A stretch of DNA of 44,059 bases from Candidatus Flavonifractor merdavium (lineage in GTDB: Bacteria; Bacillota; Clostridia; Oscillospirales; Oscillospiraceae): assembly GCA_019119335.1 (NCBI GenBank), contig DWXF01000026.1, positions 1 through 44,059 of the forward strand. Reading direction: 5' to 3'. Below are positions 33,845-42,108 of the stretch, one piece after another. The translations under genes and the position numbers were made by a program. The stretch's first letter is position 1, and every line of letters begins with the position of its first letter. The notes below the pieces were generated by a model. It did not search any database, was not told the origin of the DNA, and saw only the letters and a program-made list of their open reading frames with translations.

Positions 33845-34222
33845 ATGAACATTTACGAGTCCGCCGAAAATTATCTGGAGACCATCCTCAGCCTGCATGA
33901 GACCCAGGGGCTGGTGCGGTCCATCGACATCGCCAACCACCTGCATTTTTCCAAGCCCAGCGTCAGCGTGGCTATGAAGAAGCTGCGGGAGAGCGGCTAT
34001 ATTGAGGTGGACAAGGAGGGCTATATCTCCCTGTTGCCTGCCGGGGAGGAGATTGCCCGCCGGATCTATGAGCGGCACAAGCTGCTCACCCAATTTTTCA
34101 TTCATCTCGGCGTAAGTCCCGACGTGGCGGCGGCAGACGCCTGCAAGATTGAACACGACCTCAGCGAGGAGACCTTTCAGAAGATCAAGGAGCACGCCCT
34201 GGGCAGAGCGGCCCAGGCATAA
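33845..34222 (+). CDS. DtxR/MntR-family metal-dependent regulator
   Basis: A 125-residue protein with winged helix (1-62) and dimerisation domain, without an SH3-like third domain, the size of MntR. Metal-site positions by analogy: Asn9, Glu12, His78, Cys100, Glu103, His104. CxxEH is the DtxR/IdeR (iron) version, whereas MntR has ExxEH; Asn9 replaces the Asp of MntR and the Met of DtxR. So the metal may be iron or manganese. The context offers no metal transporter downstream except the B12-controlled importer at 36 kb, which is a separate unit. ATG 33845 follows AAAGGAGAAGG. Confidence 0.87.
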   Translation: MNIYESAENYLETILSLHETQGLVRSIDIANHLHFSKPSVSVAMKKLRESGYIEVDKEGYISLLPAGEEIARRIYERHKLLTQFFIHLGVSPDVAAADACKIEHDLSEETFQKIKEHALGRAAQA

Positions 34223-34375: not shown

Positions 34376-34445
34376 ATCATAGGCATGATAGAAATCGAAA
34401 CAAGTCAATTTGTTGGTTTTGCGCTGTACTGGGATATAATTATGC

Positions 34446-34474
34446 TTGCAATCAGCAAAAGATTGCGGTATACT
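34446..34474 (+). promoter_or_regulatory. Promoter of the structured leader region
   Basis: TTGCAA (34446-34451) and TATACT (34469-34474), spacing 17, with the inverted repeat GCAATC-7-GATTGC (34448-34466) lying across the -35 and the spacer. No gene follows for 500 bases, so it drives the RNA elements below. Confidence 0.7.
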
Positions 34475-34480
34475 AAAAAA

Positions 34481-34690
34481 GTATAAAGTAAATATCAAGC
34501 AGATACGATGAGAAACTTGTGTGACACAGGTGCTCTTTATCATAAGCCGGTGAGAGTCCGGCGCGAAAGGCCGTGTTCGTCGTAAGACATCAGCCGGCAG
34601 TGATCGTACATCAGGGAGCACCCTCTTGGGAGTCGTAGGCTGTTTTGTATCCATGCGGTCTTTCCGAAGAGGAAAGACCGTTTTTTATGC
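34481..34690 (+). ncRNA. Structured leader RNA of unassigned class
   Basis: A predicted transcript of about 205 bases that ends at an intrinsic terminator. GGTGCTC (34529-34535) can pair with GAGCACC (34616-34622) as a closing stem. Inside is the hairpin GCCGG-TGAGAGT-CCGGC (34546-34562), whose loop has the TGAGAxT pattern also seen in the cobalamin riboswitch 190 bases downstream, but the rest of the cobalamin core and its B12 box are missing. It may be a diverged riboswitch in tandem, another aptamer class or a small RNA. The ORFs across this stretch have no coding character. Confidence 0.45.
34656..34686 (+). terminator. Intrinsic terminator of the leader RNA
   Basis: Perfect 10-bp stem 34656-34665 with 34671-34680, loop GAAGA, then TTTTTT. 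Confidence 0.92.
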
Positions 34691-34705
34691 CAGAATAAAA
34701 TATAA

Positions 34706-34908
34706 CTTTTTGTGGCCGCAGAGGAAGATTCGGGCGGCTGAACAAGGGAATCGGGTGAGAATCCCGGACGGTAACCGCCGCTGTATGCGTGATGTCCGCT
34801 GCTCGTCAACGAAAGTTCGCCATTGGGGACGTGCCCTGAGAAGGCAAAGCAGACCGGCGAAGGCAGGAATACCCTGCTCCAAGCGCAAGTCAGAAGACCT
34901 ACAAAAAG
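34706..34908 (+). promoter_or_regulatory. Cobalamin (B12) riboswitch
   Basis: Class-I type cobalamin aptamer. Closing stem CTTTTTGT (34706-34713) with ACAAAAAG (34901-34908); core AAGGGAATCGGGTGAGAATCC (34744-34764) with the following ACGGTAACCGCCGCTGT (34768-34784), and the B12 box AGTCAGAAGACC (34888-34899), which differs from the usual AGTCAGGAGACC by one base. Together with the terminator downstream this predicts shut-off of the operon at 35008-42108 when cobalamin is plentiful. Confidence 0.9.
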
Positions 34909-34953
34909 AGACCGGCCAGGTGTGGGACGCTGCACTTGGCATTCGTTACGCAG

Positions 34954-34992
34954 AAAAACGGCTGTGGATCTCAGGATCCGCAGCCGTTTTTT
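34954..34992 (+). terminator. Riboswitch expression-platform terminator
   Basis: Stem 34954-34970 with 34975-34991 (one G-T pair), loop TCAG, then TTTTTTC, only 15 bases before the first ATG. A second hairpin GCCAGGTG/CACTTGGC (about 34915-34940) lies between aptamer and terminator and may serve in switching. Confidence 0.9.
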
Positions 34993-35007
34993 CAGGGAGG
35001 GATAGGA

Positions 35008-36012
35008 ATGGCGGAAGAAATCAACAAAAATCAGCTGCTGGAGCAGAAAAAAGCGGTGTTCGACATGATCGTGGAAGGCCCCAAGCTCACAGGAGAGGCG
35101 GAGGCGAAAGAGGACGATCAGTACTCACTGGACACCGAGCGAGGCGCGCAGCTCTACGCATCCTTTTCTGATGACGAGCTGCTGGAACTTCTGCGCGGAA
35201 GCGCCCAGTATCTGGGACATTCTCCCTCTCAGGGAGAGGTGCATTGGATCCTGCGTGCATATCTCAAAGCTCGTTTCAAAAATTGGCCGAGGGCATTGCG
35301 TGCAGCGGGATTGAGCCGGTCGGCGGGTCGGGGCGGAATGTCCTCAGAGCAGATGTCTCAGAAGAACGAGGAGTACCAGCAGATGCTCAATCAAATTCGA
35401 GGTATGGCGGAACAGCTGGGCCGAATCCCACACCCGTCGGAGCTACCTGAGATATGCCGGAAACTGAAAAAACGCCATCGTACCTGGGGCGAGGTTTTAG
35501 CTGCTGCCGGAGTTGAGGAAGCAGTGGCTGTCCATCTGCAGAAAGAAGAAAACCTAAAGAATGATGAGCTGTGTATACTCCGGGAATTGAGAGCCCTTGC
35601 GGAAAGGCTGAATCGCTCGCCTCTTCGGGGTGAAGTGGAGCAAAGCCTGCGGGAATCCCTGCTCCGGCGTTTTGGATCGTGGCGGAACGCACTCTATCAG
35701 ATCGATCTGGAACCGGTTCGGCGCATCACCCCCTTTGTGAATGCTCCGCTGCAGCGGGAAAAAGACAAGCAGAGGGCAACCCACCGGCAGGAACTGTACG
35801 ACTGCCACTACCGGCTTTTAAAGCTGGATCCCCAAACGCAAGCAGATTTGGCGTTGGTACGGAAACTGGCGCAGCAGCTTGGGCATCCTCCCGGCCGCAG
35901 AGAGGTACCGGCGGAGGTTCGCATGCGCCTGCAAAAGGTCTGCGGCTCCTGGTCAAACGCCCTGTTTCAACTGGGGTTACAGGAAAAGCGCGGCAGATTG
36001 CGGCAGCGTTGA
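35008..36012 (+). CDS. Protein of four homing-endonuclease-associated repeats, no nuclease domain
   Basis: A 334-residue, charged, cytoplasmic protein. Four units of about 45 residues are seen at 55-102, 124-168, 187-234 and 278-324. Each has a helix ending in LG or LN, then a xxPxxxE(V/L) turn, and closes with a W-x3-L-x3-GL type pattern: YLGHSPSQGEV..NWPRALRAAGL, QLGRIPHPSEL..TWGEVLAAAGV, RLNRSPLRGEV..SWRNALYQIDL, QLGHPPGRREV..SWSNALFQLGL. This is the HNH/homing-endonuclease-associated repeat, thought to bind DNA. No HNH, LAGLIDADG or GIY-YIG motif was found. It is the first gene behind the B12 riboswitch and 21 bases before the permease. It may be a regulator of the operon; its job is unknown. 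ATG 35008 follows GGGAGGGATAGGA. Confidence 0.82.
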   Translation: MAEEINKNQLLEQKKAVFDMIVEGPKLTGEAEAKEDDQYSLDTERGAQLYASFSDDELLELLRGSAQYLGHSPSQGEVHWILRAYLKARFKNWPRALRAAGLSRSAGRGGMSSEQMSQKNEEYQQMLNQIRGMAEQLGRIPHPSELPEICRKLKKRHRTWGEVLAAAGVEEAVAVHLQKEENLKNDELCILRELRALAERLNRSPLRGEVEQSLRESLLRRFGSWRNALYQIDLEPVRRITPFVNAPLQREKDKQRATHRQELYDCHYRLLKLDPQTQADLALVRKLAQQLGHPPGRREVPAEVRMRLQKVCGSWSNALFQLGLQEKRGRLRQR

Positions 36013-36033
36013 TTTGCTTTTGCGAGGTGAGGA

Positions 36034-36981
36034 ATGCAGATGAAACGAAAAATAAGCTACCGGCTTGCCCATATTTTTCTGGTGCTGCTGGGCGTCAGCT
36101 TTTTAAGTTTTCTGCTGATGTATGTGTCGCCGGGCGATCCAGTCCGGGCCATGTACGCTGTCAGCGGCAGTATCCCGTCGGAGGAAGTGCTGGAACAGAC
36201 CAGAGAGGAACTGGGACTCAACGATCCGTTTTTCATCCAGTACGGCAACTGGATTTCCAACTGCCTCCGGGGAGACTTCGGCACATCCTACTCAAAGGGC
36301 GAAGCGGTAGCGACCCTTTTGATGGAGCGGGTCATGCCCACCATTCAACTGGCGCTGCTGTCCCTGGTGATCATGGTTCTTGTGGCCGTACCCATCGGCG
36401 TATACTCCGCTTTGCTACAGAACAGCATACTGGACTATCTTTTGCGGGGTACCACATTTATCAGCATTTCCATGCCTAATTTCTGGGTGGGATTGCTGCT
36501 GCTCTATGTGGTGGCCATGAAGCTGGGATGGCTTCCGGTGGTGTCCAACCAAATGAACTTCCAGCGGTTGATTCTGCCAGCCGTGACATTGGCCATTGCC
36601 ATGGCGGGGAAATACGCCCGACAGGTTCGGGCGGCTATTTTGGAGGAATTGCGTCAGGACTATGTGGCAGGCGCCAGGGCCCGGGGGCTGTCGGAACGAT
36701 GCGTGCTCTGGTGCCATGTGCTTCCAAACGCTGTTTTGCCTCTTATCACTATGCTGGGGCTGTCTTTGGGCTCTCTGCTGGGCGGAACCGCCGTGGTGGA
36801 AGTCATCTTTTCCTATCCGGCACTGGGCAGCCTGGCCATCTCCGCCATTACCTCCAGAGACTATCCGCTGATCCAAGGCTATGTACTGTGGATCGCTCTG
36901 ATCTATATGGCGGTCAATCTGGTGGTGGATCTCTCTTATAACCGGCTGGATCCCCGGCTGAGAAAGGAGCTGCAGGCATGA
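36034..36981 (+). CDS. ABC importer permease, DppB/NikB type
   Basis: A 315-residue membrane protein with six helices. LAHIFLVLLGVSFLSFLLMYVSPGDPVRAMY is the standard start of the family; the EAA loop is EELRQDYVAGARARGLSERCV (about 209-229) which contacts the ATPases. Family 5 importers of this type carry peptides, nickel, opines or other small solutes. GAGGTGAGG precedes two close starts, ATG 36034 and ATG 36040. It overlaps the next gene by 4 bases. Confidence 0.93.
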   Translation: MQMKRKISYRLAHIFLVLLGVSFLSFLLMYVSPGDPVRAMYAVSGSIPSEEVLEQTREELGLNDPFFIQYGNWISNCLRGDFGTSYSKGEAVATLLMERVMPTIQLALLSLVIMVLVAVPIGVYSALLQNSILDYLLRGTTFISISMPNFWVGLLLLYVVAMKLGWLPVVSNQMNFQRLILPAVTLAIAMAGKYARQVRAAILEELRQDYVAGARARGLSERCVLWCHVLPNAVLPLITMLGLSLGSLLGGTAVVEVIFSYPALGSLAISAITSRDYPLIQGYVLWIALIYMAVNLVVDLSYNRLDPRLRKELQA

Positions 36982-39437
36982 CCGCTGCGAAAAAGCGTTT
37001 TTTGGTGTTTGGCCTGATGGCCCTGGCCATACTTCTTGTGGCGGTGCTGGCCCCTGTCATTGCCACCCATGATCCCAACAGCTCCGTTCTGGCGGATGCG
37101 GTGCAGCCCCCCAGTGGGGAACACTGGTTTGGGACAGACAAAATGGGGCGGGATCTGTTCTCCCGTGTCATTTATGGTACCAGAACCTCCATTTTATCCA
37201 CCATGGTGCTGGTGCTCAGCATTCTGCTTTTGGGCGGCGCCCTGGGCATCGTGGCCGGTTATGTCGGCGGCATAGTGGAAACCATCATCATGCGCGTTGC
37301 CGACATGATGGTCTCCTTTCCCGGTATGGCTCTTGCCATTGCCCTGGCCGGTATGCTGGGGGGCAGTATGACCAGCGCCATCCTGGCCATTATGGCGGTA
37401 AGCTGGACGAAATATGCCCGTCTGGCCCGCAGCCTGGTGCTGAAGATCAAGCACCAGGACTATGTGCTGGCTGCCCGGATCTCCGGGACCCGGGAGCGGG
37501 ACATCCTGCTGCGCTATATGGTGCCGTCAGCCCTTCCCACCCTGGTCATCACCGCTGCCACCGATGTGGGAGGGATGATGCTGGAGCTGGCCGGCTTCTC
37601 CTTCCTGGGCCTGGGTGCCCAGTCTACCTCCATTGAGTGGGGATATATGCTCAATGAGGGACGGGCCTATATGGAATCGGCGCCGTGGCTGATGGTATTT
37701 CCAGGACTTGCTATCTTTCTGACTGTGGTGATCTTCAACCTGCTGGGGGACAGCCTGCGGGATATCCTGGATCCCAGAGAGGATGAGGCGCAGCCCCATT
37801 CAAAATCAAAGAAAAGAGGAGACAAGATGAAGCGTTTGAAACATGTATCCACAAAGGCTGCCGCCCTTCTGGTTGGAGCGATGCTGCTCTCCGGTGTACT
37901 CACCGGCTGTGGCGGCACTCCGTCCGCGGAACAGACGGAGCAGACTCACCTGAACTTCGGCTGTTACAGTTACTCTGACTCTCTGGACCCCATTACCACA
38001 GTCAATTCCAGCTGGGCCGGCATGCGCTACGGCATCCTGGAGTGTCTGTTCCGGTTTGACGATCAGATGGTGGCACAGCCCTGGCTCTGTGATGCCTACG
38101 AGGTCTCCGACGACTATACCGCCTGGATCCTGCACATCCGGGAGGGCGTGCAGTTCTCCAACGGAAATCCTGTGACTCCTTCCGCCGTCCAGGCCGCCTT
38201 TGAGCGGCTGTACGCCGAGACCGACGCCGACCGGGGCGGCACCGGCAACTCCAATCCCGAGGTCTATCTCCCTGAGCCGGAGCTGACCGCCGATGACGAG
38301 GCAGGTACTCTCACCGTGGTCTGCCAGCGCCCCACTGGAAATCTGCCCGGTATCCTGGCCTATCCCTATTTCTCGGTGATCGATGTGTCGGTGGTGGAGC
38401 AGGGCATCGTCAGCACCGGCCCTTATAAGCTGGACAGTATGCAGGCCGGTGTGGGCGCTGAACTCTCCCGCAATGAGTACTACTGGAATGGAGAAGTTCC
38501 CTACGATACCGTTTCTATCCTTTTCATCGAGGACAGCTCCACCAAGGCCATGGCGCTCCAGAGCGGGGACGTGGATCTGGTGGAAAATATCACCACCGCC
38601 AGCGATCTGGAGAAGCTGGAAGCGGATGACCGCTTTTATGTTTCCACCGCCGCAGGTGTTCGCACTGGCAACTCCTACATGAATTTCAACGGCCCCCTGG
38701 CAAACGACGCTTTGCGGCAGGCGGTTCTTATGGCGCTGGACCATGAGACCATGTGCAATGTAACGGTGGCAGGTATGTACACCCCGGGCTTTGCGGCACT
38801 CCCCTCCTCTCTGGCCTACAACTACGACCAGCTTACCAATCCCTATCCCTATGATGTAGAAAAGGCCAAGGAGACTCTGGATGAGGCTGGGATCGTGGAC
38901 ACCGATGGGGACGGCATCCGGGAACTGGACGGCGAGAACATTGATCTGGTCTATCTGGCCTACACCAGCCGTAACCTCAACGATTTTGCCCAGGCCATTG
39001 CCCTCCAGCTGGAGGAGATCGGCATCGGCGTTACGCTGAATGTCAGCGACTATGACACCATCACCGCACTCCAGAACGCCGGTGAGTTTGACCTGGTTAC
39101 CGCCAACACCACCACTGTGGGAACCGGAGATCCCCAGGATTTTTTGGGTGGATGGTACTCCGGAAATTCTCAGAACTACGGATATTACCACAATGAGGAG
39201 TACGATGCCTGCTTTGAGGAGCTGGAGGTGACCACCGATCAGGCACGGAGACTGGAACTGATCACCCGGATGCAGCAGATCCTCATCGACGATGCGGCCA
39301 CCATCATCCACGGCTATTATAATAGCCGGATGATGAGCTGGGCGGATCGGGTCACCGGCGCGGAGATCGCCACCATCGACTACTATTGGCTCACCAGTGA
39401 TATTGCACCCGCGGCGGAGGAAAGCAGCAATGCTTGA
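36978..39437 (+). CDS. Fused DppC-type permease and lipoprotein substrate-binding protein
   Basis: One open frame of 819 residues carries two usually separate subunits. Residues 1-283: DppC/NikC permease with GTDKMGRDLFSRVIYGTR and EAA loop VLAARISGTRERDILLRYM. Then the linker DPREDEAQPHSKSKKRGDK and, from Met284, a complete family-5 substrate-binding lipoprotein: signal helix, lipobox LTGC (GVLTGCGG), DPITTVNSSW, and the signature-like DAYEVSDDYTAWILHIREGVQFSNGNPVT. An internal SD, AGAGGAG, lies 5 bases before the ATG of Met284 (37827), so free binding protein of 536 residues can also be made. The topology allows a true fusion, as the permease C-terminus is cytoplasmic. No stop or frameshift separates the parts in this sequence. 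Ligand unknown. Confidence 0.9.
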   Translation: MTAAKKRFLVFGLMALAILLVAVLAPVIATHDPNSSVLADAVQPPSGEHWFGTDKMGRDLFSRVIYGTRTSILSTMVLVLSILLLGGALGIVAGYVGGIVETIIMRVADMMVSFPGMALAIALAGMLGGSMTSAILAIMAVSWTKYARLARSLVLKIKHQDYVLAARISGTRERDILLRYMVPSALPTLVITAATDVGGMMLELAGFSFLGLGAQSTSIEWGYMLNEGRAYMESAPWLMVFPGLAIFLTVVIFNLLGDSLRDILDPREDEAQPHSKSKKRGDKMKRLKHVSTKAAALLVGAMLLSGVLTGCGGTPSAEQTEQTHLNFGCYSYSDSLDPITTVNSSWAGMRYGILECLFRFDDQMVAQPWLCDAYEVSDDYTAWILHIREGVQFSNGNPVTPSAVQAAFERLYAETDADRGGTGNSNPEVYLPEPELTADDEAGTLTVVCQRPTGNLPGILAYPYFSVIDVSVVEQGIVSTGPYKLDSMQAGVGAELSRNEYYWNGEVPYDTVSILFIEDSSTKAMALQSGDVDLVENITTASDLEKLEADDRFYVSTAAGVRTGNSYMNFNGPLANDALRQAVLMALDHETMCNVTVAGMYTPGFAALPSSLAYNYDQLTNPYPYDVEKAKETLDEAGIVDTDGDGIRELDGENIDLVYLAYTSRNLNDFAQAIALQLEEIGIGVTLNVSDYDTITALQNAGEFDLVTANTTTVGTGDPQDFLGGWYSGNSQNYGYYHNEEYDACFEELEVTTDQARRLELITRMQQILIDDAATIIHGYYNSRMMSWADRVTGAEIATIDYYWLTSDIAPAAEESSNA

Positions 39438-40209
39438 GATCAATGGGCTGACGGTTGCTTATGGAGAGCGCCTGGCATTGCGGAATTTCTCTCTTTCCAT
39501 GCAGGAGGGAGAGATCGTAGCCCTGGTAGGTGAGAGCGGCAGCGGCAAGACCACCGCCATCCGCTCTGTTCTGGGGCTTCTGCCGCCGGGAGGAGCCGTG
39601 ACCGAAGGAACGATCTCTTTTGAAGGCCAGCAACTGCAGGGACTTTCACCCCGGGAGTGGAAATCGCTGCGGGGGAAGAAACTTTCCATGATCTTTCAGG
39701 ATTCCGGCGCCATGCTCAATCCCATCCGCACCATAGGCTCCCAATTCTGTGAATATATCCGTACCCACAGCAGTCTGTCCAAAAAAGAGGCGGGGGCGCT
39801 GAGCCAGGAAATGCTGGAACGGATGGGGCTTTCCGACCCGGAGAGTATTTTGGGTGCCTATCCCTTTCAACTCAGCGGAGGTCAGCGCCAGCGGGTGGGC
39901 ATCGCTATGGCCATGACCTTCCAGCCAAAGCTCCTGTTGGCGGATGAGCCTACCAGCGCATTGGATGTGACCACCCAGGCGCAGATCGTCCGGCAAATGC
40001 TGGAGTTGCGGGATACCTATGGCACGGCTATTCTTCTGGTGACCCATAACCTGGCGGTGGCTGCCTACATGGCCAGCCGCATCCTGGTTATGCGCAACGG
40101 CAGCACTGTGGAACAAGGCGACCGGGAGAGCCTTCTGCGAAGTCAGGAGCCATACACCCGCCAACTGCTCCAGGCGGTTCCGGATCTGGGAGGGAAGCGT
40201 TATGTCTGA
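39430..40209 (+). CDS. ABC importer ATPase, DppD/NikD type
   Basis: A 259-residue ATPase with Walker [10 protein letters not shown] (34-42), signature LSGGQRQR (about 155-162), Walker [13 protein letters not shown] and the switch His in LVTHNL. Shorter than usual DppD because it lacks the C-terminal oligopeptide extension. ATG 39430 has GGAGG upstream and overlaps the previous stop by 8 bases. Confidence 0.93.
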
Positions 40210-41155
40210 ATGCATTTTGGAGGGGCGGGGGCTTACACGCCGTTACCGGCGACCGGATGGGCGAATTCTGACCGCCTGCCAGCAGATTGATCTTCGCCTT
40301 TATCCCGGAGAGACACTGGGAATCGTAGGGGAAAGCGGCTGCGGCAAGAGCACGCTGCTACGGATGTTGTCCCAGCTGGAGCGGCCTGATGAGGGACAAT
40401 TGCTGTTTCGTGGGGAAGATGTGACCGGCTGGAAGGGCGAAAACCTGCGCCGGCACCGCAGGCATATCCAGATGGTCTTTCAGGACCCTGCCGCCGCCTT
40501 TTTCCCACGAATGCGGGTATGGGATGCCGTGACGGAACCGCTGCGCAACTATTCCTCCTGCTCCAGAGGAGAGTTGCGGGAGAAAGCCAAGCAGTTACTG
40601 GAAATGGTAGAACTCCCACAGGAGTTTCTGGACCGGTATCCCCACTCCATGAGCGGCGGCCAGCGCCAGCGGCTGGGCATTGCCCGGGCCCTGGCGCTGG
40701 AGCCCGAGGTGCTTTTATGTGATGAGGCCACCTCTGCTCTGGATGTCTCCACCCAGGATCAGTTGGTAGAACTGCTGGTGGAGCTCCAGCGGCAGCGGGA
40801 GCTTGCCATCCTGTTTGTCTGCCACGATCTGGCCTTGGTCCAGTCCCTTTCCCACCGGATCATGGTGATGTATCTCGGCGTAGTGGTGGAGTCGCTCCCC
40901 AGCAGCTGTCTTGCAAAAGACGCCCTTCACCCCTATGCAAAGGCCCTTCTGGAGTCTGTCTTTTCTCTGCATGACAACCATGAGAGACTCATTGTCCCTC
41001 TCTGCGGGGAGGTGCCAAGTCCCATTGACCGTCCTGCCGGCTGCCCCTTCCACACCCGCTGTTCCCACTGCACAGAGCTTTGCCGTACCAGAATGCCGCA
41101 AATGACCGCTGTGGGACCGGAGCATTGGGTGGCCTGCCACCGATACAGCGATTGA
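40202..41155 (+). CDS. ABC importer ATPase, DppF/OppF type
   Basis: A 317-residue ATPase with Walker A GESGCGKST (43-51), signature SMSGGQRQRLGIARAL, Walker B VLLCDEATSALD and switch His in VCHDLAL. It keeps the C-terminal oligopeptide-transporter extension with four cysteines, CPFHTRCSHCTELC, which in relatives can hold an Fe-S cluster. Overlaps the preceding gene by 8 bases; completes the importer with one permease, one permease-binding protein fusion and two ATPases. Confidence 0.94.
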   Translation: MSECILEGRGLTRRYRRPDGRILTACQQIDLRLYPGETLGIVGESGCGKSTLLRMLSQLERPDEGQLLFRGEDVTGWKGENLRRHRRHIQMVFQDPAAAFFPRMRVWDAVTEPLRNYSSCSRGELREKAKQLLEMVELPQEFLDRYPHSMSGGQRQRLGIARALALEPEVLLCDEATSALDVSTQDQLVELLVELQRQRELAILFVCHDLALVQSLSHRIMVMYLGVVVESLPSSCLAKDALHPYAKALLESVFSLHDNHERLIVPLCGEVPSPIDRPAGCPFHTRCSHCTELCRTRMPQMTAVGPEHWVACHRYSD

Positions 41156-41172
41156 TTTTAGGAGGAATCGCC

Positions 41173-42108
41173 ATGCAGATAACAGATAGGAAAGAGTGGG
41201 AGGCCGGTCGGATCACCGGCACACTGCCCGTACAGGGCGGCCCAGGCTTGCCGGTATGGATGATTTGCGGAGCATCGGGCGGCCCAACTCTGGTGCTGAC
41301 CGCAGGCGTCCATGGCTGTGAATATGTGGGCATCATGACGCTACGGCGGCTCTTTGCTCAACTGGCTCCGGCCCAGATTCGGGGGCGGGTGATCCTGCTG
41401 CCGCTGGTCAATAGCGAGGGCTTTTATGCCGGAAGCAAACAGGTGGTGCCAAGCGATGGAAAGAATATCAACCGGGTCTTTCCGCCTCCGGAGGAGGGTA
41501 CGATAGCCCAGGAGATCGCCCGGACTGTGGTGGAGCAGATCTACCAGGAGGCCGACTTTCTTCTGGACCTCCACGGCGGAGATGTAAATGAGGCGATGAC
41601 GCCCCTTGTCTTTTACCCGGCCACGGCTGCGCCGGAGGTGACGGCACAGGCCCGGGAGGCCGCACAGCATCTGGAAGTTCTGTACCGCATCCCCTCCACC
41701 GCCCAAAACGGATTGTACAGCTATGCAGCCCAATGCGGTATTCCCGCTCTGCTGATGGAGGTGGGCGGCATGGGTCTCTGGACGGAGGAGCAGGTGGAGC
41801 TGGAACTGCGCAGCATACAGAGTCTGATGGGATATCTGGATATGGGTTCGGCTCCTGTTAAAAACAACCGTCAGCAGGAAGCGGAGGAAATGTGTTATGC
41901 AGAGGCAGAGGTCTCGGGTTTTTGGTTTCCTGAGATTAAGACAGAACAGAAGATTTCCGCTGGGCAGATGCTGGGAAGAATCGAGAATCTGGAGGGCCGC
42001 ATCCTCCAGACGATCCGCGCCCGCTGGGATGGCATGGCGCTATACCATACGGTTTCCTTGGGCGTGACAACAGGAGATGCCCTTGTGGCATACGGGAAGA
42101 TAGGATAA
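41173..42108 (+). CDS. M14-family zinc hydrolase, AspA/AstE (aspartoacylase-like)
   Basis: A 311-residue cytoplasmic amidohydrolase. Zinc ligands are His47 and Glu50 in GVHGCEYVG and His134 in LLDLHGGD; DGKNINRVFP (95-104) is the substrate-binding N-x-R region typical of the aspartoacylase / succinylglutamate desuccinylase group. The C-terminal third is a small beta domain. It is the last gene of the B12-controlled operon, 17 bases after the ATPase, with AGGAGG before ATG 41173. Likely removes an acyl or amino-acyl group from the imported solute; the solute is unknown. Confidence 0.88.
   Translation: MQITDRKEWEAGRITGTLPVQGGPGLPVWMICGASGGPTLVLTAGVHGCEYVGIMTLRRLFAQLAPAQIRGRVILLPLVNSEGFYAGSKQVVPSDGKNINRVFPPPEEGTIAQEIARTVVEQIYQEADFLLDLHGGDVNEAMTPLVFYPATAAPEVTAQAREAAQHLEVLYRIPSTAQNGLYSYAAQCGIPALLMEVGGMGLWTEEQVELELRSIQSLMGYLDMGSAPVKNNRQQEAEEMCYAEAEVSGFWFPEIKTEQKISAGQMLGRIENLEGRILQTIRARWDGMALYHTVSLGVTTGDALVAYGKIG

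Follow-up and report, generated by a model that had tools for sequence, protein, structure and literature searches.

What does a cobalamin (B12) riboswitch control when the genes behind it encode a Nik/Dpp-type importer, a repeat protein and a metallohydrolase, and what else takes part in that control? We addressed this question in 44,059 nt of contig DWXF01000026.1 of Candidatus Flavonifractor merdavium (assembly GCA_019119335.1, 81.6% complete). This whole stretch is called the window below (G000:C55 in our numbering, in which G, C and L stand for genomes, contigs and loci). We consider it rather probable that the operon encodes an importer for chelated cobalt that belongs to the NikBCDE/Opp2 kind, is repressed by B12 and stands behind an unusual regulatory head. 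This head is the new part; the transporter is of a conserved, known kind, and the hydrolase recurs as an accessory.

The sole Rfam match in the window at gathering thresholds was a full cobalamin riboswitch aptamer (RF00174, 34693–34920, forward strand like all features of the operon; E = 6.3e-19, model positions 1–189), with an intrinsic terminator at about 34954–34992 (an 18-bp hairpin, then T). An earlier note on this DNA had proposed such a riboswitch and terminator ahead of the operon; the covariance search, which could have rejected the riboswitch, instead scored it at 82.4 bits against a gathering threshold of 31.5. Orthologous riboswitches in G001, G007, G014, G015 and G018 scored 86–89 bits. 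Behind the terminator lie six densely packed frames, and the gene set given in the note held for all six in Pfam and NCBIfam searches. They encode a protein with four HNH_repeat units, here called HNHrep and read as a putative nucleic-acid-binding regulator (35008–36012; PF18780, E = 4.7e-41), a NikB-type permease (NikB/DppB-like, 36034–36981), a NikC-type permease (36978–37826) fused in frame to a family 5 solute-binding lipoprotein (SBP, 37827–39437; SBP_bac_5, E = 2.1e-72), a NikD-type ATPase (39430–40209), a NikE/DppF-type ATPase (40202–41155; PF00005 and oligo_HPY; PRK11308, 317 bits, below the cut-off of 408) and an AspA/AstE-type, M14-like metallohydrolase (41173–42108; PF24827, E = 2.1e-29). 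The operon, which the note had begun at 34706, starts further upstream. A second structured RNA, R1, which is a diverged relative of the cobalamin riboswitch by our covariance models R1 and R2, occupies 34500–34646 and has an intrinsic terminator of its own (34655–34687; an 11-bp stem, then a T run). Both R1 and the broader association between the repeat protein and B12 genes had been overlooked. The presumed transcript start is a promoter-like site, TTGCAA-17-TATACT (34446–34474), found by a consensus scan in which comparable matches are about as frequent by chance. DNA similarity to L019, L021, L022, L057 and L058 begins at 34434–34446, at or just before this site, and similarity to G001 begins only at 34491.

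R1 with its terminator (34480–34690) folded with a z-score of −4.7, and none of 200 shuffled sequences was equally stable. It did not reach the RF00174 gathering threshold, and an Rfam search at E ≤ 10 returned no cobalamin or other credible match, only one to snoU61 (14.3 bits against a gathering threshold of 55). DNA searches detected R1 in six of 119 genomes, and a covariance model built from those six (model R1) found the same six among 149 genomes, all within the genus; the window's own genome is included in both counts. Among 15 loci from a pattern scan of named genomes, seven have R1 (five already known relatives plus the new L057 and L058). Including the window, R1 was followed by a cobalamin riboswitch in eight of eight loci, and its terminator stem was kept in all six aligned genomes. 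Model R1 had no match at E ≤ 1 in 16 further loci, most of them from other genera.

The affiliation of R1 emerged from short paralogues of HNHrep in G004, G014:C264, G015:C40 and G016, each of which is preceded by a short RNA element. Rfam recognizes this element as a cobalamin riboswitch in G004 (46.1 bits) and G016 (45.4 bits); in G014:C264 and G015:C40 it did not reach the Rfam cobalamin threshold. Model R1 matched all four short elements (14.8–16.5 bits, E = 0.017–0.045), and model R2, built from these four, matched R1 in eight of eight loci. The matches were better in the four loci with the variant B transporters described below (23–28 bits, E = 1.7e-4 to 2.5e-3) than in the window and the three other type A loci (15–17 bits, E = 0.06–0.19; in the window 34505–34624, 17.3 bits, E = 0.06). 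By our placement, each of the 18 R2 matches coincided with R1 or with a known cobalamin riboswitch, or lay immediately before an HNHrep gene. The stretch AAGCCGGUG-GA-UCCGGCGC is common to R1 and the short elements. R1 reads AGCCGGC where the short cobalamin elements show AGCCAGG, a stretch that presumably lines the ligand site; the hairpin GCCGGUG-GA-UCCGGC is kept, and P3 is longer in R1 in our reading. Covariation within R1 was weak (among seven distinct sequences, three pairs changed on both sides, and all three belong to a single 3-bp helix), so the predicted structure rests mainly on the cross-matches with the short cobalamin elements. From these cross-matches we conclude, on sequence comparison, that R1 belongs to the cobalamin type and has diverged strongly. 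A gene for a DtxR/MntR-type metal-dependent regulator (33848–34222, scoring under the MntR cut-offs) ends about 280 bases before R1.

HNHrep was searched for at E ≤ 1e-8 in 149 genomes and at E ≤ 1e-6 in 295 genomes of the order. With L057 and L058 added, as well as a weakly related gene in G013, this gave 17 loci. Full-length HNHrep stood behind R1 and the riboswitch in eight loci, and in four the short form lay between the short element, upstream, and a full riboswitch, downstream. The intact G430 copy followed two full riboswitches in tandem, the G013 relative followed one, and R2 matches preceded a broken G430 copy (24.3 bits) and the G058 copy (18.4 bits). In the remaining locus, G015:C20, a similar-looking element and terminator were seen by eye only, with no model match. 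A model-supported cobalamin-type RNA was thus directly ahead of HNHrep in 16 of 17 loci; the R2 matches at the four short-form loci hold by construction, and the others are independent. Two members of the set are doubtful: for the G013 protein the score of 17.1 lies below the Pfam cut-off (26), and the G015:C20 protein matched no Pfam family at E ≤ 0.001. The relatives in two other genera (G058 and G430) also belong to B12 uptake clusters behind cobalamin-type RNAs. The short-form clusters examined contain SLH and DUF4430 surface proteins and energy-coupling factor (ECF)-type genes; we take DUF4430 to be a transcobalamin-like domain. The available part of PMC4350170 mentions both DUF4430 and transcobalamin. 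The broken G430 copy (L085:5978–6320) contains an internal stop codon, yet a short cobalamin-type element and terminator are kept ahead of it. At L064:1953–3486 in G014, a full cobalamin-type RNA is followed by a short one, a short HNHrep gene and another full one.

The PF18780 match of HNHrep covers four stretches (139.4 bits against a cut-off of 26). The protein has four repeat copies, as other HNH_repeat proteins do, and differs from them in its position in front of B12-controlled uptake genes and in that Pfam and NCBIfam scans found no nuclease domain, so that it does not classify as an HNH homing endonuclease. Its sequence had no match in the PDB at E ≤ 1. The AlphaFold2 model was all-helical, with a predicted local distance difference test (pLDDT) score of 68.6 (61.9 for a single repeat), which is too poor for fold assignment. 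One paper names PF18780, in a table, among targets for structure modelling. HNHrep probably regulates B12/cobalt uptake genes by binding DNA or RNA, a role suggested by its genomic setting.

R1, the riboswitch and HNHrep form a single conserved block. Between the window and G018, G015, G001 and L057, DNA similarity begins at 34434–34491, extends over these three elements and stops at 35976–35990; between the window and G014 it runs from 34441 to 42103, at the end of the hydrolase gene, with no similarity found in the flanks. Behind the block we found transporter type A in the window, G007, G014 and L058, type B1 in G018, G015 and L057, and type B2 in G001. The B1 and B2 transporters look unrelated to that of the window (SBP about 25% identical). 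Contig C58 of the window's own genome carries an operon to which type B2 is 82–88% identical; that operon lies behind a separate cobalamin riboswitch (47.2 bits) and showed no HNHrep match. One DNA-conserved block in front of three transporter types in Flavonifractor indicates that the head is exchangeable. R1 and HNHrep look like a seemingly undescribed layer of B12 regulation: in the literature on HNH_repeat, B12 in Flavonifractor, tandem cobalamin RNAs and riboswitch variants, in which subscription journals were thinly covered, we found no description of a head made of an atypical cobalamin-type RNA and HNHrep. R1 differs from the RF00174 aptamer found beside it at full length in escaping the model at E ≤ 10 and in the AGCCGGC of its core. 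As a tentative proposal, R1 and the short elements could constitute an undescribed branch of cobalamin-type riboswitches, with the core changed in R1 and possibly with another corrinoid, a precursor or cobalt status as ligand. This branch would be dedicated to HNHrep as a new B12-gated nucleic-acid-binding regulator, the two serving as a portable head before at least three different cobalt/B12 importers.

The importer genes had been described in the earlier note as a dipeptide (Dpp) type. The NCBIfam cut-offs make the permeases nickel-type instead (Opp2B, 392.8 against 350; Opp2C, 307.1 against 300), and the older NikB and NikC models were not passed (313.4 against 447; 286.1 against 358.45). 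The ATPases stayed below the Nik cut-offs as well (nickel_nikD, the best NCBIfam match of the first, 231.2 against 318.7; nickel_nikE, 241.2 against 332.55). The nearest solved chain to the SBP was 3t66, called a nickel-binding protein (E = 7e-38). The NikC–SBP frame is unbroken over 36978–39437, and its junction is open in four of four loci of this operon type (G000, G007, G014 and L058), which makes it unlikely that the fusion is a sequencing error; relatives in G044, G124 and G332 have a stop there. The SBP half retains its own ATG, ribosome-binding site and lipobox. The note had further held that Dpp/Nik importers are not standard members of B12 regulons. However, NikABCDE operons behind a predicted B12 riboswitch were reported in C. 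tetani and D. hafniense and read as cobalt uptake (Zhang et al. 2009, PMC2667541, as far as the available part of that paper shows), so the transporter part is of a known kind. The published systems and that of the window are all nickel/peptide-family ATP-binding cassette importers behind a predicted cobalamin riboswitch; as far as the published systems are described, the window adds the SBP–NikC fusion, the hydrolase, the HNH_repeat gene and the second RNA.

We searched for relatives of the SBP and then opened the neighborhoods, which gave a clade with seven viewable loci in six genera outside the genus (counts marked in this way exclude the window's own genus). Identities to the window were 38–51% for the SBP and 55–69% for the permeases. 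A cobalamin riboswitch above threshold lay directly ahead in five of the seven loci (G030, G136, G132, G124:C48 and G332). The G044 locus had one at 26.8 bits (E = 0.0038), under the threshold of 31.5, and G124:C36 starts inside the SBP at a contig end. The window's gene order, B-C-SBP-D-E, recurred in G124:C48, G332 and G044. With its loci behind riboswitches, B12 control is kept over the transporter clade. A stricter idea, that such control is exclusive to the clade, was dropped, as B1, B2 and the C58 operon lie outside the clade and also follow riboswitches. Seven places had less similar SBPs (32–37% identity, E ≤ 1e-60); of these, G128, G478 and G124:C4 were left out, and none of the four opened (G133, G386:C27, G013 and G396) had a riboswitch directly ahead of the transporter. 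In three genomes a gene that resembles a methyltransferase, by the start of its sequence only, precedes a more distant Nik-type importer (SBP 34–36%) that likewise has no riboswitch directly ahead (L110:4887–5687, L111:3246–3962 and L112:11302–12105). G136 and G132 carry a second cobalamin riboswitch on the other strand, back to back with that of the operon (L105:10075–10285, 56 bits, and L106:6780–6903, 73.6 bits), and in G136 a molybdenum cofactor (Moco) riboswitch (RF01055, L105:16869–17001, 39.4 bits, cut by the end of the locus) is some 7 kb away from the operon under B12 control.

The cargo was approached via the distribution of CbiC, a late corrin enzyme that marks de novo corrin synthesis, and CbiM, the usual component of cobalt ECF transporters. 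Of 149 genomes, counting the window's own, 54 had CbiC, and every one of the 20 genomes of the genus was among these. Beyond the genus, it occurred in four of five genomes with the clade transporter versus 30 of 124 others (Fisher p-value = 0.017). CbiM was found in 16 of 22 genomes examined, own genome included. In G030 and G124, CbiC is present alongside the clade transporter and CbiM had no match, which suggests that the importer may be the cobalt route of these genomes, the search for cobalt transporters having been limited to CbiM. On balance, the co-occurrence of the clade with CbiC fits cobalt supply, and cobalt rather than a corrinoid appears the likeliest cargo. The import of cobalt in complexed form, one of two options raised in the earlier note, is supported indirectly. 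B12 control and the gene set, also part of that note, were borne out, the clade lying behind riboswitches in five other genera, with a sixth below threshold, and the hydrolase recurring in G030. The other option, an amide-linked corrinoid or ribazole conjugate, is weakly supported, as the clade accompanies de novo corrin synthesis, not a lack of it. Two further cobalamin riboswitches of the window's own genome (L028 and L027) are on contig C50, the contig with the CbiC and CbiM matches.

The hydrolase carries the catalytic domain of the DoeB, AstE and AspA deacylases (AstE_AspA_cat, PF24827; 102.9 bits against a cut-off of 25), and the Pfam scan returned this domain alone. The nearest solved structure was 3cdx, with DoeB (6twm) among the others. 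The HGxE, DGxxINR and DxH motifs, which we take to hold zinc and substrate, align with those of 3cdx. The hydrolase differs from these deacylases in lying in an importer operon and not among genes of ectoine or arginine breakdown, and it scored 84.6 against the DoeB cut-off of 402.7. We examined 14 homologous loci, three of them in the window's operon type. Opp/Nik genes were nearby in nine; the exceptions were G307, G316, G461, G437 and G474. Two hydrolase lineages are B12-controlled: that of the window's group, in which it is the last gene, and that of G030, in which it opens the operon immediately after a riboswitch of 112 bits. In the other ten loci, no riboswitch was found in the stretches retrieved, the G386 stretch being cut by the contig start. 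In a phylogenetic tree, the window's group clustered with G017, G307, G316 and G414 (support 96/95), apart from the G030 hydrolase, most deeper forks being weak. This separation indicates that enzymes of one kind most likely joined one and the same B12-controlled importer on at least two occasions. Among clade loci outside the genus, the hydrolase occurred in one of the six with a visible downstream side, which makes it an accessory, optional partner. We found no description of the whole gene set in the literature on this hydrolase with cobalt or on B12 with nickel transporters, again with subscription journals thinly covered.

The favored reading, a B12-repressed importer of chelated cobalt, can be put as a sequence of events. 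At low corrinoid levels, both RNA aptamers would be empty, neither terminator would form, and RNA polymerase would read into the operon. HNHrep would be made first and would act as a nucleic-acid-binding regulator of B12/cobalt uptake genes. The SBP, tethered to NikC, would capture a cobalt chelate, e.g., a cobalt–amino acid or cobalt–peptide complex, and NikBCDE would import it. The hydrolase, which would most simply process the metal chelator, would then cut an N-acyl or amide bond in it and release cobalt for the corrin pathway. The full aptamer, both terminators, the gene set, the B12 control of the clade, the repeated occurrence of the hydrolase near Opp/Nik genes and the constant link between HNHrep and cobalamin-type RNAs are computed observations; we infer that R1 senses a corrinoid, that both switches repress, that the cargo is cobalt, that the hydrolase acts on the chelator and that HNHrep is a regulator. 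Several points weigh against this reading. The SBP is far under the NikA equivalog cut-offs (Opp5A_nikA, 228.3 against 600; nickel_nikA, 143 against 393). The CbiC contrast is post hoc, small and ignores kinship, and the CbiM match in the window's own genome means another cobalt route there. G044 (83% complete) has neither a CbiC nor a CbiM match, and G332 has no CbiM match, CbiC lying outside the search in that genome. The hydrolase is missing from five of the six clade loci just mentioned, all but that of G030. The proposed role of R1 as corrinoid sensor leans on a distant homology, and a fold search of the PDB with the HNHrep model gave nothing at E ≤ 0.001 (best E = 1.4); a LexA-like fold, matched only at E = 4.7 or worse, was discarded.

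These points leave room for other accounts of the operon. The transporter might import a corrinoid or a fragment of one (cobinamide, or a conjugate of cobyric acid or of ribazole), with the hydrolase as a CbiZ-like amidohydrolase that remodels it. The B12 control of the operon would suit this account, as would the clustering of HNHrep relatives with SLH/DUF4430 surface proteins and ECF-type genes, read as B12 capture, and the G022 locus, in which FecCD, ATPase and Peripla_BP_2 genes, presumably of the class of corrinoid and siderophore importers, come after the hydrolase. We regard it as unlikely, given permeases that are nickel-type by curated cut-off, a clade that goes with de novo corrin synthesis and a hydrolase missing in four of the five other genera viewable. 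It is decidedly unlikely that an ordinary nickel or peptide importer came under B12 control incidentally, e.g., to supply peptide or nickel for a B12-alternative pathway. Family 5 SBPs do have many cargoes, solved relatives including peptide, heme and nickel binders, and the permease models carry the name of nickel, but across six genera (one below threshold) the clade has retained its B12 control, and it accompanies corrin synthesis.

A further alternative concerns the head, in which R1 could be a functionless, decayed duplicate of the riboswitch and HNHrep a homing or mobile-element leftover riding on the leader. HNH_repeat is named for homing endonucleases, HNHrep matches the phage family phrog_22655 (E = 4e-14), the block changes transporter and neighborhood, and one G430 copy has an internal stop. 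Against decay, R1 shows a mean column identity of 86% over eight loci while the neighboring HNHrep drops to 60%, and with the terminator stem kept this looks like constraint. A mobile origin is countered by the lack of a nuclease domain in the scans, by the occurrence of HNHrep relatives in three genera, all in B12-riboswitch or ECF settings, and by the lack of a match in phage or plasmid collections. We consider this alternative quite unlikely.

Bacterial B12 regulation of uptake and synthesis genes has mostly been described as riboswitches acting alone. With HNHrep, found behind cobalamin-type RNAs across three genera and two families, this regulation would gain a protein component, and a portable RNA-plus-protein head common to different importers would likewise extend the picture. 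For the drift of a riboswitch toward a new ligand, R1 would offer an obvious case to study. Finally, the transporter clade gives concrete candidates for the cobalt supply of B12-making gut Clostridia that show no CbiM.

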